A program made the position numbers and the translations under genes. A DNA stretch of 62,621 bases, taken from NCBI GenBank assembly GCA_018675425.1, contig JABGYD010000003.1, forward strand, positions 1 through 62,621, written 5' to 3'. Positions 22,170 to 60,376 of this stretch are shown in pieces. The notes below the pieces were generated by a model that worked only from the letters and a program-made list of their open reading frames with translations, was not told the DNA's origin and ran no database searches. The DNA comes from Kordiimonadaceae bacterium. GTDB lineage: Bacteria; Pseudomonadota; Alphaproteobacteria; Sphingomonadales; Emcibacteraceae. Position 1 is the stretch's first letter. Each line of letters opens with the position of its first letter.

Positions 22170-22542
22170 GTCAGATGGCTGGAAGATCGCTGCTGTATTT
22201 TTATGAATACAGGAGAGGAAAGTCCGGGCACCACGAAAGAGCAGTGCTGGTTAACGACCAGCGAAGGTAACTTCAGGGAAAGTGCCACAGAAAGTAAACC
22301 GCCAGCCTAGGCTGGTAAGGGTGAAAGGGTGTGGTAAGAGCGCACCGCCTTTCTGGTGACAGAAAGGGCATGGTAAACCCCACTGGGTGCAAAATCGAAT
22401 AGGAACGACTGGCTTTGGCCACTTATTTTTTCGAAGTGTCGTTCGGGTTGATTGCAAGAGGTTGTTGGTAACAATAGCCCTAGATGAATGATCTTACAGG
22501 TGGGAAACCACCGGACAAAACCCGGCTTATAGGCCATCTGAC
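22170..22542 (+). ncRNA. rnpB: RNase P RNA (class A)
   Basis: The catalytic RNA subunit of RNase P. The helix P1 strands GTCAGATGGC (22170) and GGCCATCTGAC (ending 22542) close the molecule. The conserved core is clear: GAGGAAAGTCCGGGC, then GAAAGGGTGTGGTAAGAGCG, GGTAAACCCC, and TAGATGAATGATCT followed by ACAAAACCCGGCTTA near the 3' end, where CCGG is the loop-type tRNA CCA contact. A T-run follows P1 directly. Open frames on the minus strand across this region are incidental. rnpB upstream of mraZ is an alphaproteobacterial arrangement. Confidence 0.97.
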
Positions 22543-22548
22543 CTTTTT
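22532..22548 (+). terminator. T-tract after the rnpB P1 helix
   Basis: The 3' strand of helix P1 (GCCATCTGAC) is followed by CTTTTTT. In rnpB genes the P1 helix and a T-run often end transcription; no separate hairpin is seen. Confidence 0.45.
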
Positions 22549-22638: not shown

Positions 22639-24855
22639 ATGTACTTATTTCGGAATATGATAATTGTCTTGGCGTCTGCAAGTATATTTTTATGTACGGC
22701 GATGGCGGCTAGTCTCACAATCAAACAAATTACGGAAAATGTTAACCTTAACGGATCCATTCCAGGCGGGCTTAAATTTTCTCCAGACGGAGCGCGCGTG
22801 ACATTTTTGCGGAGCAGTGTAGCAGATGAACGGGTTCTAGATTTGTGGGAATATAACGTTGCTGAGAAAATATCTCGCCTTTTAGTCAAGGCAACTGACA
22901 TCACGGGTGGAGAAGAGCAATTATCTGAAATAGAACGTGGCCGCCGGGAACGCATGAGAATAACCAATTTTGGAATTGTTGATTTTTCCTGGTCAAAGGA
23001 CGGAAAGAAAATACTGTTCCCATTGGGCGGAGATCTTTATGAGTATTCTCTTGCGAGTCAATCTACTAATCGTCTTACGAATAATAAAACATTTGTGTCG
23101 GATAGCCGTTTTTCTCCTCAGGGAAGCTATATATCTTATATTGAAAATAATAATATTCACATTGTAAATGTGAATAGTAAAGTTATTCAAACGATGACCT
23201 ATTCTTCTTCGCCGACTGTCAAAAATGGTGTAGCAGAGTTTATAGCCATGGAGGAAATGGATCGGGATACAGGCTATTGGTGGTCTGAAGATGAAAAATA
23301 TATAGCCTACATTCAATTTGATGAAAAAAACATAGATGAGCGCGGGCGTTACGAAGTTATCCGCGATGGGTTTAAAGTCTTAAAAGAGAGATACCCGCGC
23401 GCTGGAACCAGCAATGTTACTGTCAAGCTTGGTATTATGGAGGTGGCATCAGGTCAAACAAAATGGATTAATCTGGGTGACAATAAAGATATATATTTAC
23501 CACGTGTTTCATGGGTTCCAAATAGTAGTGGTATTTTTTATCAAATCCAAAACCGAGAACAAAATCGACTGGATCTTATTTATGCTGATGCGAAAACCGC
23601 AAACAAAAGAACAATACTTATCGAACATTCTAAAACGTGGATTAATTTGAACCACGGCTTAAAATTAATCAAAAATGGTAAAGAGTTTTTGTGGCAATCA
23701 GAACGAACGGGGTTTAATCACCTATATCATTACAAATCAGATGGTAAATTAATTAACCAACTTACTGACGGTGACTGGGTTGTAAATGGCCCAGTAAAAT
23801 TAGCAAATGATGAAATTTATTTTTCGGCTAACGCTGACGACTATCTTGAGAGACATTTATATAAAGTGCCATTGATAAGCGATAAACAATTAAGACCAGA
23901 GAAAGTTTCAATTCGTGCAGGTTGGCATACTATTAACTTTCCGGACGAAGGAAATAATTATATAGATCGCTTTTCTTCCGCCGATCAACCTACTCAAGTT
24001 TCGATCCATAATCTTAGTGGTGAGCGAGAGTTATGGATCGAGGAAAATAAAATTAATAGTGACCATCCTTATTCTGCTTATTTGGGGCAGCATATTAAAC
24101 CTGAGTTTGGGAAAATAAATAATAAAAATGGTGATGAGTTGCATTACCGTATGTATAAACCTGAGAATATGGAACCTGGTAAAAAATACCCGGTGATATT
24201 TGCTCTTTATGGTGGACCAGGATCACAGTTGGTAAGAAATGTTTGGGGCAATCTCTTGCATCAGGTTTGGGCTCAGGACGGATATGTTGTTTTTACACTC
24301 GATAATCGTGGCACCAGTAACAAAGGTACTAAATTCGCAGGTGCGGTTTATCATCATTTGGGGGATGTGGAGGTTGAAGATCAAGTCGTGGGCGCTAATT
24401 ATCTAAAAACACTTGATTTTATTGATGGTGATAAAATTGCCGTTCAGGGGCATAGCTATGGAGGCTACATGGTTCTAATGAGCATGTTTAAGGCTGCTGA
24501 TATCTTTAAGGTTGGGGTGTCCGGTGCACCGGTAACAGACTGGAAACTTTATGATACCCACTACACCGAACGTTTTCTTGGACAAACAAGTAGTGATGAG
24601 GGTTTATATGAAAAAAGTAGCGTCTTTCCTTACATTAATGGACTAAAGGGTAAACTTCTTATTCTACATGGATTAGCTGACGATAATGTTCTTTTTAACC
24701 ATACAAGTATGTTAATTGATGAACTACAGCAGCGTGCCATACAGTTTGATTTTATGGCTTATCCTGGTCAGACACATCGTCTAGGAGCAGATAGAATGCG
24801 ACAAAGGCATGTTTATGAAACTCAAAAAAGATATCTTGATGACCACCTTAAATAG
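22639..24855 (+). CDS. secreted dipeptidyl peptidase IV-like S9 peptidase
   Basis: A 738-residue prolyl oligopeptidase-family enzyme with a signal peptide (MIIVLASASIFLCTAMAAS), a beta-propeller N-terminal part, a Glu-rich MEEMDRDTGYWWSEDE segment matching the Glu-Glu motif that binds the substrate N-terminus in DPP IV, and a C-terminal alpha/beta hydrolase. The triad is visible: Ser606 in GHSYGGYM, Asp in HGLADDNVLF, and His713 in GQTHRLG. DPP IV removes X-Pro or X-Ala dipeptides from peptide N-termini, here probably in the periplasm. It separates rnpB from mraZ, which are often closer together. Confidence 0.92.
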   Translation: MYLFRNMIIVLASASIFLCTAMAASLTIKQITENVNLNGSIPGGLKFSPDGARVTFLRSSVADERVLDLWEYNVAEKISRLLVKATDITGGEEQLSEIERGRRERMRITNFGIVDFSWSKDGKKILFPLGGDLYEYSLASQSTNRLTNNKTFVSDSRFSPQGSYISYIENNNIHIVNVNSKVIQTMTYSSSPTVKNGVAEFIAMEEMDRDTGYWWSEDEKYIAYIQFDEKNIDERGRYEVIRDGFKVLKERYPRAGTSNVTVKLGIMEVASGQTKWINLGDNKDIYLPRVSWVPNSSGIFYQIQNREQNRLDLIYADAKTANKRTILIEHSKTWINLNHGLKLIKNGKEFLWQSERTGFNHLYHYKSDGKLINQLTDGDWVVNGPVKLANDEIYFSANADDYLERHLYKVPLISDKQLRPEKVSIRAGWHTINFPDEGNNYIDRFSSADQPTQVSIHNLSGERELWIEENKINSDHPYSAYLGQHIKPEFGKINNKNGDELHYRMYKPENMEPGKKYPVIFALYGGPGSQLVRNVWGNLLHQVWAQDGYVVFTLDNRGTSNKGTKFAGAVYHHLGDVEVEDQVVGANYLKTLDFIDGDKIAVQGHSYGGYMVLMSMFKAADIFKVGVSGAPVTDWKLYDTHYTERFLGQTSSDEGLYEKSSVFPYINGLKGKLLILHGLADDNVLFNHTSMLIDELQQRAIQFDFMAYPGQTHRLGADRMRQRHVYETQKRYLDDHLK

Positions 24856-25119
24856 TTGCAGGCCTATTTAGTAAATTATTTTCTATCATAACTAACCCTT
24901 GATCACCGACGCGATGTCTCTCATGTACTCCGATTCTTATGTTTTGGGGCATCATTTTAATATTTTAGCACGATTTATTCATTAAAACCCATTTGGTGGT
25001 TTTTTATCACTATATATTATTCTATGAAAATAAACTGATATTTTTAACATAAGTTATTGAAAATAAGTAATAATATTAGTTTTCGTAGATTAGTTAATGA
25101 GGTATTAATTTCGTGTAAC
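24856..25119. other. intergenic region between the peptidase and the mraZ operator
   Basis: AT-rich, no gene seen. It contains one GANTC site (24932-24936) and a distal pair of operator-like units, ATTCAT at 24977 and ACCCAT at 24987, spaced 10 bases apart. The 13-base core CATTAAAACCCAT (24980-24992) differs at one base from the copy at 25143-25155 in the mraZ-proximal array. Confidence 0.5.
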
Positions 25120-25165
25120 GAGCATTAAATTCCATTGACGGGCATCAAAACCCATGGTATTCCAT
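25120..25165 (+). promoter_or_regulatory. putative MraZ operator over the division-cluster promoter
   Basis: Five hexamers follow each other with an exact 10-base period: GAGCAT (25120), TTCCAT (25130), GGGCAT (25140), ACCCAT (25150) and TTCCAT (25160). Known MraZ sites are short direct repeats at about 10-bp spacing upstream of mraZ (TGGG-type in E. coli, AAAGTG-type in Mycoplasma); on the complementary strand the units here read ATGGAA, ATGGGT, ATGCCC, so the form matches though the sequence differs. A promoter-like TTGACG (25135) with a 17-base spacer and TATTCC (25158) lies inside the array, as expected for autorepression. The -10 match is weak. Confidence 0.55.
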
Positions 25166-25237
25166 TTAAAGGATAAAAGCGGGAAATTAATCCTCTTCAA
25201 GCTAATCTTTTTTGTTAATAATATTTTGGGCGACAAT

Positions 25238-25720
25238 ATGCCGTTATTTATGTCGAAATATACTAATAAGGTGGACGGAAAGGGTCGCGTCTCTGTTCCA
25301 TCTCAATTTCGAGCTGCGCTGCCTTCTGGTTTCCAGAAATCTATTGTTATGTATCAGGCTGTAAATCATGGAGCTATTGAGTGCTGTGATCTTCTTCATA
25401 TTGAAAAAGTGAATGACAGTCTTGAAGGTTTTGCCCCTTATTCTGACGAGCATGATGAATTTAGTCTTGCTCTTATGTCAGGGCTTACTGAGTTGTGTTT
25501 TGACGGTAATGGGCGGATCATTTTACCTCAAGACCTTATGGAATATGCAGGGATAATGAACCTGGCTACATTTGCTGGTAAAGGTAAAACTTTTCAAATA
25601 TGGGAGCCGGCAGCATTCAATCGTGAGCTAGATATAGCTCGGCATAAAGTTAAAGAGAAAAGAGATCTTTTAAAGTTTAGATTAAAAACAACTGAAGGGA
25701 CAATTAAGGATGGTTCTTAG
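25238..25720 (+). CDS. mraZ: division and cell-wall cluster transcriptional regulator MraZ
   Basis: A 160-residue DNA-binding protein with two AbrB/SpoVT-like swapped-hairpin repeats. Repeat 1 is KVDGKGRVSVPSQFRAAL; repeat 2 is CFDGNGRIILPQDL; both contain the DxxGR core. MraZ forms a ring of subunits that binds spaced direct repeats and represses its own operon in E. coli. I use ATG 25238 (MPLFMSKYTNKVDGKGRVS), which fits family length; the frame is open 28 codons upstream but those overlap the operator array. The last 11 bases overlap rsmH. Confidence 0.95.
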   Translation: MPLFMSKYTNKVDGKGRVSVPSQFRAALPSGFQKSIVMYQAVNHGAIECCDLLHIEKVNDSLEGFAPYSDEHDEFSLALMSGLTELCFDGNGRIILPQDLMEYAGIMNLATFAGKGKTFQIWEPAAFNRELDIARHKVKEKRDLLKFRLKTTEGTIKDGS

Positions 25721-26720
25721 TTCTGTCGGTCAGAAAAACTTAAATGTTTTAAACCATACCTCAGTTATGCTTAATGAAGTTCTCGAAGCGCTTAAGCCTA
25801 ATAATACGGGGGTCCATGTTGATGGGACGTTTGGTGCCGGTGGATATAGTCGTGCGATACTTGATCAAGGTGCATCTATGTTATGGGCTATTGATAGGGA
25901 TCCGACAGTGATTAGTGCGTCTAATTCTATTGAAAATGAATTTCAGGGAAAATTTCAACTTCTTCAGGGTTGCTTTTCAAACATGGAAAAAATTCTTAAA
26001 GAAAAAGGTGTGAAATCCGTGGATGGTATAGTGCTTGATATTGGAGTTTCTTCTATGCAGCTTGATCAAGCTGAAAGAGGTTTTTCATTTATGAGAGATG
26101 GCCCATTGGATATGCGGATGGGCCCCGAGGGTCAAACCGCTGCTGATGTGGTTAATGAAATGGAAGAAGAAGAGCTGGCAAATATTATTTACCGCTACGG
26201 CGAAGAACGTGCATCACGCCGAGTGGCGCGGGCAATTGTTCATGCACGAACAGAAAAAAGTTTCAAGCGCACGCTTGAACTTTCAAAGGTAGTAAAAAAA
26301 GCCGTTGGAGGCCCTGAATATAAAAAAGGAAAGCGACAAATTCATGGTGCAACAAGGACATTTCAGGCTCTGAGAATATATGTCAACGATGAGCTTGGCG
26401 AATTAAAACGGGGTCTAGAGGCAGCTGAGAGAATGTTGGCCCCAGGTGGTCGGCTTTGTGTTGTCACATTTCATTCTCTAGAGGATAGGATCGTTAAAGA
26501 ATTTTTCAAACTTAAAAGTGGAGATGTGCCTCGGAGTTCGCGTCATATGCCTACTTGCGAAACCAATATATCTGAACCTACTTTTAAGATGGTTTTTCGG
26601 GGTGGGAAAAAAGCAACAGAAAGTGAAATAACAATAAATACCCGTTCGCGTTCAGCAAAAATGAGGGCGGCGGTGCGCACTTTGGCACCTTCTTGGTTAG
26701 GAGAGAAAAAATATGATTAA
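25710..26720 (+). CDS. rsmH: 16S rRNA (cytosine1402-N4)-methyltransferase
   Basis: A 336-residue SAM-dependent methyltransferase that adds the N4-methyl to C1402 in the decoding centre of 16S rRNA. Motifs: HTSVMLNEVLEAL at the N-terminus, DGTFGAGGYSRAIL (SAM-binding), DIGVSSMQLDQAERGFSFM, and the late CVVTFHSLEDRIVK. Overlaps mraZ by 11 bases and ftsL by 8, so translation is coupled at both ends. The gene is the second member of the division cluster in nearly all bacteria. Confidence 0.97.
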   Translation: MVLSSVGQKNLNVLNHTSVMLNEVLEALKPNNTGVHVDGTFGAGGYSRAILDQGASMLWAIDRDPTVISASNSIENEFQGKFQLLQGCFSNMEKILKEKGVKSVDGIVLDIGVSSMQLDQAERGFSFMRDGPLDMRMGPEGQTAADVVNEMEEEELANIIYRYGEERASRRVARAIVHARTEKSFKRTLELSKVVKKAVGGPEYKKGKRQIHGATRTFQALRIYVNDELGELKRGLEAAERMLAPGGRLCVVTFHSLEDRIVKEFFKLKSGDVPRSSRHMPTCETNISEPTFKMVFRGGKKATESEITINTRSRSAKMRAAVRTLAPSWLGEKKYD

Positions 26721-59959: not shown

Positions 59960-60280
59960 TGCAAACAATTCAAGCTACTAGATTAGGAATGAAGTGGTAG
60001 GCTTCTGTTGCTAGGTGCCTACCGAACCCCGCGTAACTAACCTATTAGGCAGCTACAGCAAATGCTTCATTATCGTTTGCATTTACAAAATTTGACCCGT
60101 TACAGAGGTGTCATACTGGGCAAAAGGTATATCTTTATTGCGCACGTCGATCCTATTTCGCCCCCATAAAAGTCTATATATCAATGACTTAATATAATGG
60201 TGGAGGCGCCGGGTACCGCCCCCGGGTCCGATACGTTTATTCCATATATCAGTTTATTGCCGTAGTCGGTTACCCGACTC
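59960..60280 (-). ncRNA. ssrA: tmRNA, circularly permuted two-piece form
   Basis: On the minus strand the gene begins with an acceptor piece: hairpin AGTCGG/CCGACT, then GGACCCGGGGGCGGTACCCG and GGCGCCTCCACCA, whose encoded CCA lies at 60198-60200. After a spacer of about 32 bases (60166-60197) the coding piece starts GGGGGCGAAATAGGATCGACG at 60165; GGGGGCG pairs with CGCCTCC of the acceptor piece, six Watson-Crick and one G-U pair. The tag frame at 60045-60080 encodes ANDNEAFAVAA and ends TAA TAG. A 7-bp hairpin GGTAGGC/GCCTACC follows. Such order of pieces is known from alphaproteobacteria, where the precursor is cut to two RNAs. Ends are approximate. Confidence 0.93.
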
Positions 60281-60284
60281 GTTA

Positions 60285-60313
60285 TGTATAAGCTTTAATG
60301 CTTAAGATTTAAA
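60285..60313 (-). promoter_or_regulatory. sigma-70 type promoter for tmRNA
   Basis: On the minus strand TTTAAA (60308-60313), a 17-base spacer and TATACA (60285-60290), placing the RNA start near 60278, at the first hairpin of the acceptor piece. It is divergent from thyA. Confidence 0.5.
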
Positions 60314-60376
60314 TAGATTTGAGTAAAATAATGTGCAAAATACATATAATTATTTAAAATATGAAAATGGATGAGC

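Follow-up and report, generated by a model that had tools for sequence, protein, structure and literature searches.

MraZ forms rings. In Mollicutes, MraZ boxes stand in coding-strand orientation, and we know of no distal site that accompanies them. The MraZ operator of Escherichia coli, with its promoter mraZ1p, was reportedly described by Eraso et al. in 2014. In the E. coli K-12 sequence, which we read for comparison, three GTGGG repeats are found in 10-bp steps on the coding strand just before mraZ, and with the mraZ leader of 38 nt given in the accessible portion of PMC5089854 these repeats would lie around and after the start site. Mollicutes MraZ boxes are AAAGTG[T/G] repeats upstream of mraZ, and the box repeats occur a single time in the M. 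genitalium chromosome (PMC8475190, accessible portion). The literature that we searched contained no binding or expression data for any alphaproteobacterial MraZ or for the organism considered here.

We analysed a stretch of 62,621 nucleotides from a Kordiimonadaceae bacterium, referred to as the window. As in E. coli, direct repeats of a TGGG core in exactly 10-bp steps are located just upstream of mraZ, but here they are on the opposite strand, with four firm boxes laid over the -35 and -10 and with an additional distal pair. The locus shares with Mollicutes the repeated short boxes upstream of mraZ, although the core differs, and shares with CtrA-controlled alphaproteobacterial mraZ promoters a TTAA-N7-TTAA element by the promoter, although no CtrA orthologue was found here. 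Based on sequence comparison, positions 25131-25165 are very probably the autoregulatory MraZ operator of the division and cell-wall (dcw) cluster, placed over its promoter and serving repression, with the distal pair as a target of the same binder. The orientation, the promoter fusion and the phased distal pair are what is new in this putative operator.

The repeat array and its embedded putative promoter

The initial annotation had described five CAT-ended hexamers at 25120-25165 in exact 10-bp steps, and a base-by-base check bore this out. GAGCAT, TTCCAT, GGGCAT, ACCCAT and TTCCAT start at 25120, 25130, 25140, 25150 and 25160, separated by the spacers taaa, tgac, caaa and ggta, and the array ends 72 bp before the mraZ start. 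The -35-like TTGACG was likewise located where it had been placed, within the array, while an extended -10, also inside the array, was absent from that account (Table 1). Three or more direct repeats of a TGGG-type core, spaced by about 10 bp, precede mraZ, and their core is on the minus strand. Box 1 reads ATGGA on that strand, is CCCAT in most relatives of the genus, and its final T also serves as the opening base of the -35.

Table 1. Positions of sites upstream of mraZ and of the adjoining genes in the window.
Feature	Position	Strand	Remarks
GANTC site, CGATTCT	24932..24936		One or more additional sites further upstream in 11/12 relatives
Distal two-box site, TTCAT-TAAAA-CCCAT	24978..24992	-	Upstream of box 1 by 153 bp in the window and by 152-154 bp in 13/13 genus loci
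TTAA-N7-TTAA	25094..25108	+	37 bp upstream of box 1; resembles CtrA consensus of other alphaproteobacteria
Weak extra unit, AGCAT (first hexamer of the initial annotation)	25121..25125	-	CAT in 5/13, CCA in 0/13 genus loci
MraZ box 1 (putative), TCCAT	25131..25135	-	CAT and xCCA in 13/13 genus loci
-35 hexamer, TTGACG	25135..25140	+	TTGACG in 13/13 genus loci; inside array
MraZ box 2 (putative), GGCAT	25141..25145	-	GGCAT invariant, 13/13 genus loci
MraZ box 3 (putative), CCCAT	25151..25155	-	CAT in 12/13 genus loci; runs into TG of extended -10
Extended -10, TG-G-TATTCC	25155..25163	+	13/13 genus loci; 17 bp after -35
MraZ box 4 (putative), TCCAT	25161..25165	-	CAT in 13/13 genus loci; overlaps -10 hexamer
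mraZ, 160 aa, presumed binder of boxes	25238..25720	+	Pfam MraZ, E 1e-15
rsmH (mraW), next gene of cluster	25710..26720	+	TIGR00006, 333 bits, cut-off 154

Ladder searches singled out the mraZ locus. In the whole 2,202,078-base genome, five CAT-N7 units in succession matched once on the forward and not at all on the reverse strand, and the reversed-pattern control gave no match on either. With up to three mismatches allowed, the five-CAT ladder had three matches in the window against 3.5 expected from shuffles; all three were inside the array, and the exact match alone had fewer than three mismatches. A four-box CCAT ladder searched across the genome at the same tolerance found the mraZ array as its best match, with one mismatch. 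Both ladders were thus found only or best at mraZ, in searches that covered five- and four-unit ladders as distinct from two-box sites. Further MraZ targets in the genome were sought among the same matches and none was convincing, the next four-box match outside the array having two mismatches (C12).

The boxes of the window are degenerate, reading TCCAT, GGCAT, CCCAT and TCCAT against the class consensus CCCAT, and the departure of box 2 from that consensus counts against the operator reading. This degeneracy of the genus array is the reason that CAT, and not CCCAT, was recognised initially. It is also the reason that an exact three-box YCCAT pattern had no match anywhere in the genome, the mraZ array included, a null result that again counts against the operator.

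The promoter-like sequence recurs with the array. In an earlier, smaller set of 140 alphaproteobacterial regions, TTGA(C/T/A) was present at or near the array in 136, and TAT followed after a 17-bp spacer in 71 and after an 18-bp spacer in 26, compared with 0-14 for the other spacers from 10 to 24 bp. TG preceded the TAT in 78 of the 96 regions that had TAT at 16-18 bp. When one locus was taken per family, a -35/-10 pair at 16-18 bp was found in 38/47. Since the boxes and the promoter hexamers have bases in common (CCCA running into TTGAC, and CCCA, TGnTAT and CCCAT running into one another), we read the arrangement as one in which MraZ and RNA polymerase would compete for the same DNA, with transcription expected to start near 25170. 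A generic sigma-70 promoter scan made no call for the mraZ promoter, which counts against the operator reading; the scan missed it because TATTCC is far from TATAAT.

Conservation and orientation in Alphaproteobacteria

Thirteen loci, one from the window and one from each of twelve further genomes of its genus, were aligned upstream of mraZ. Taking the box that runs into TTGACG as position 0, CAT was found at 0, +10, +20 and +30 in 13, 13, 12 and 13 of the 13 loci. The unit at -10, which had been counted as the first of five, carried CAT in 5/13, and a further unit at -21 carried it in 10/13 and is lost in the window. The conserved array of the genus is four firm units plus variable ones, and differs from the five units originally proposed, the first of which is weak. 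All 13 loci keep the 10-bp period, and the proposal thus survived the refutation set for it, namely absence of the period from close relatives. Among the matches listed, the closest named relative was an Emcibacteraceae genome, isolate RIS_SAG_07.

The 10-bp period is also kept outside the genus. We scored a CCA ladder as present when at least three of four units fell at period 10 within 250 bp. By this measure it preceded mraZ in 169/200 distinct alphaproteobacterial upstream regions, whereas control periods of 7, 8, 9, 11, 12, 13 and 14 in the same regions gave 9, 1, 0, 1, 0, 0 and 0. It was absent from the remaining 31/200, which counts against the operator reading. These regions were distinct in their last 120 bp, 30 of 230 having been dropped as duplicates or as shorter than 100 bp; they are not independent, and many are from Pelagibacterales. 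In the one-per-family set the ladder was present in 45/47, with 0-1 at other periods. This set comprised 47 of 49 loci fetched from 98 genomes with MraZ, the 49 being the 29 best matches and 20 picked by hand from the remainder, mostly by rank. Its unit consensus was CCCAT(G/A)NNAT, with 2-6 boxes per array and 4 or 5 in 33/47. The ladder is therefore not peculiar to this organism, and is the common form in Alphaproteobacteria.

In one family of the order (f6, L220-L230) the MraZ N-termini are divergent. The ladder in this family is weak or missing, with 3/11 loci passing the CCCA test and 5/11 by a soft score, and this counts against the operator reading. The operator and the protein may be decaying or co-diverging there.

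The orientation of the array distinguishes the class. The TGGG core of E. coli reads CCCA when reverse-complemented, and its usual though non-defining coding-strand placement, seen in E. coli, is not what is found here. In alphaproteobacterial regions, CCA ladders were found on the coding strand in 169/200 and TGG ladders in 3/200, the latter being near the control level (0-2 at other periods). In non-alpha proteobacterial loci a TGG ladder was on the coding strand in 22/29, and a CCA ladder at period 10 in 0/29; these were 29 of the best 30 loci among 97 genomes with a match, one locus without a recognisable start having been left out. These counts show that the ladder is reversed in Alphaproteobacteria relative to E. 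coli. The reversal had been missed in the initial annotation, and the open-access literature that we searched contained no paper on it, nor on alphaproteobacterial MraZ boxes.

The distal pair and the sites around it

The 13-base core CATCAAAACCCAT at 25143-25155 was said to recur with one base changed at 24980-24992, and direct reading confirmed that it does. Alone this repeat is unremarkable, since the 13-mer CATYAAAACCCAT had 10 matches with up to two mismatches against 6.5 expected. We hold the distal site to be real because it is conserved in relatives, and not because of the 13-mer repeat. The pair CCCATAAAAACCCAT or a near form of it was present in all 13 genus loci, and nine of the twelve relatives carry it as CCCATAAAAACCCAT or CCCATCAAAACCCAT. 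Under a strict threshold for distal pairs 11/13 loci pass, and the window's own TTCAT...CCCAT falls below it because of its first box, TTCAT. The distance had been put at about 150 bases, and it proved to be 152-154 bp upstream of box 1 in every genus locus. Mean pairwise identity across the genus was 0.92 for the proximal array, 0.81 for the distal pair and 0.61 for the TTAA box, while the 89 bp between the sites had an identity of 0.53, compared with 0.49 for shuffled sequence. In the same loci the distance from the array to the start codon varied by 27 bp. This fixed distal spacing suggests that a single complex holds both the distal and the proximal sites.

Of the 43 anchored loci of the order outside the genus, 12 had a distal pair at period 10, against 0-2 at control periods or spacings, and its absence from the other 31/43 counts against the operator reading, as does its being hardly enriched in other orders (4/55 anchored loci, controls 0-3). 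All of these counts include only loci with a recognised -10, which excluded 11 loci of the order together with the whole of family f6 (11 loci) and 67 loci of other orders. The distance from the distal pair to the -10 box in eight genera was 154, 173, 174, 174, 183-184, 184, 185 and 195 bp, and a ninth genus (g18) was an outlier at 411 bp. Clustering of helical phase at 10.5 bp gave R 0.93 with p about 1e-4 for the eight genera, and the weaker R 0.73 with p 0.005 when g18 was added, which counts against the reading; the null was uniform phase, and p is uncorrected for the pattern having been noticed first. One value was used per genus, that for g9 being the mean of L130 and L141, and the additional pairs of L028, L137 and L191 did not enter the test. 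Helical phase was also considered for the other orders, and was dropped as chance because the four pairs were near control level and scattered over 198-513 bp.

Phased spacing of this kind fits a loop or a continuous nucleoprotein complex, without being proof of either. We put forward, tentatively and as something a little short of probable, that Alphaproteobacteria share a reversed, promoter-fused MraZ operator to which genera of families f1, f4 and f5 add an MraZ loop of about 150 bp tuned to whole helical turns. These genera are part of one order and include that of the window.

GANTC sites are concentrated further upstream. The stretch 195-230 bp upstream of box 1 contained 26 GANTC sites in 468 positions over the 13 genus loci, compared with 8 sites in about 5,948 positions elsewhere. 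All 13 loci had one to three of them at 199-229 bp, about 40 times denser than elsewhere, mostly as CGA(G/T)TCT; two or three were present in 11 loci, and one in the window and in L003. Their distance upstream of the distal pair is about 45-60 bp or more, and we take them to be a GcrA/CcrM-like motif. A gcrA gene was identified in the genome (PF07750, 133 bits), with a model that also matched one archaeal control. An N6/N4 methylase gene found with PF01555 adjoins an rnhB-like ORF and is presumably CcrM-like. PF18284 had been tried for CcrM and was the wrong model, matching only E. coli among the controls. Judged by gene presence alone, the genome has both gcrA and a putative CcrM-like methylase.

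The position of these GANTC sites upstream of the distal pair throughout the genus raises a different explanation, namely that the distal pair is the operator of a second, upstream promoter that is read separately, and is not a looping site. In its favour, mraZ belongs to the genes for which secondary transcription starts occur in one or more agrobacterial lineages (PMC10469942, accessible portion), and in Rhodobacter sphaeroides the promoter that serves mraZ lies 268 nt upstream (PMC5089854, accessible portion). However, if the pair simply served an independent promoter, then its spacing would not need to be fixed to 1-2 bp across near-randomly diverged DNA, nor to differ by about whole turns among the other genera. 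We consider this explanation a serious one but, on balance, doubtful. A second promoter and a loop need not exclude each other.

Between the distal pair and the array, the TTAA-N7-TTAA box keeps a distance of exactly 37 bp from box 1 in 11/13 genus loci and in 6/6 loci looked at from other genera of the family. In the 140 regions, a TTAA pair had the N7 spacer in 29, and other spacers in 0-8. A CtrA consensus like this box is quoted in the accessible portion of PMC3616915, which also reports a predicted CtrA motif at S. meliloti mraZ, and in a Caulobacter study mraZ and ftsL rose upon loss of CckA function (PMC12421884, accessible portion). The conservation first favoured CtrA as the binder of the box. 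No CtrA orthologue was found in the window genome (99.62% complete), the best match to Caulobacter CtrA having 30% identity and E 1.1e-18. CtrA was not found in 6/12 genus genomes that are at least 90% complete (G000, the window's, and G001, G002, G004, G006 and G010), nor in a seventh, G011, which is only 53% complete. The other six encode CtrA at 75-76% identity to that of Caulobacter. The box is kept in 5/6 genomes with CtrA and in 6/7 without, and CtrA as its binder is weakened because the presence of the box does not track CtrA. Either CtrA was missed in these assemblies or another factor may use the TTAA site; loss of this master cell-cycle regulator in one subgroup of the genus is possible.

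The candidate binder and its proposed action

The gene behind the array is mraZ. Its product scored 57.9 bits with PF02381 (cut-off 23), where only the second repeat (residues 80-130) passes, and stayed below the cut-off of the NCBIfam MraZ models (best 135.5 of 162). The AlphaFold2 model had a mean pLDDT of 82.9, and a fold search of the PDB returned 16 chains with E up to 0.001, all of them MraZ (E 3.6e-11 to 1e-6), including Mycoplasma MraZ structures. Among these, 9r4j and 9sz7 are, by their titles, complexes of Mycoplasma genitalium MraZ with promoter DNA, one being its promoter and the other a 4-box promoter. The model and the fold search confirm the family and no more. Downstream of mraZ are rsmH, ftsL and a gene for an ftsI-like penicillin-binding protein. 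Upstream are an RNase P RNA gene (22171-22545) and, between it and mraZ, a gene for an S9/DPP IV-type peptidase (22639-24855), in place of which the relative L012 has two PilZ-domain genes. The window also contains an alphaproteobacterial (permuted) tmRNA gene on the minus strand at 59993-60317.

MraZ as the binder in alphaproteobacteria is an assignment made from sequence, and the ladder could instead be the site of another regulator of the dcw cluster, or a phased promoter element. In Rhodobacter sphaeroides NtrX binds upstream of mraZ (PMC7240162, accessible portion), and CenR gave a ChIP signal there that is, according to its authors, maybe an artefact (PMC9275681, accessible portion). However, the motifs given in these portions for NtrX (GCAn9TGC) and CenR (TGA-N8-TGA) are unlike the ladder, reverse-complementing the ladder core gives that of the E. 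coli TGGG box, at the same 10-bp step, and mraZ is the only place of the five-CAT ladder in the genome. We therefore regard a different regulator or a promoter element as quite unlikely. Another reading takes the distal match as coincidence, or as one arm of a hairpin terminating the upstream gene. It was suggested by the unremarkable 13-mer statistics and, in the window alone, by AAAACC...GGTTTTTT beside the distal site, which resembles a weak hairpin, but this is extremely improbable and was rejected on comparison with relatives, since a terminator scan of 24850-25240 found none, relatives keep both boxes and not, by eye, the hairpin partner, and the distal position is held in 13/13 genus loci.

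For the autoregulatory MraZ operator we propose the following action. The four firm boxes, placed every 10 bp, would all lie on one face of the helix, over the -35 and the extended -10. MraZ most likely binds several boxes in a row and would thereby keep RNA polymerase out, which would confine expression of mraZ and its downstream genes to times when MraZ is scarce. The same protein is the most likely binder of the distal pair, and the distal and proximal sites would then be joined in one complex with the intervening DNA probably looped. If this is true, the MraZ ring would bridge two sites and repress by looping, which is unreported as a mechanism of MraZ in the literature that we searched.

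MraZ is a highly conserved regulator of bacteria, and the literature that we reached says little of what it targets outside E. coli and Mollicutes. A class-wide operator with a clear consensus would make the action of MraZ approachable in Caulobacter, Sinorhizobium and their relatives. Depending on the class, as the reversal shows, the boxes can face either way relative to transcription, and this difference constrains how MraZ must bind. The phased distal site, in turn, makes a looping model of MraZ directly testable.
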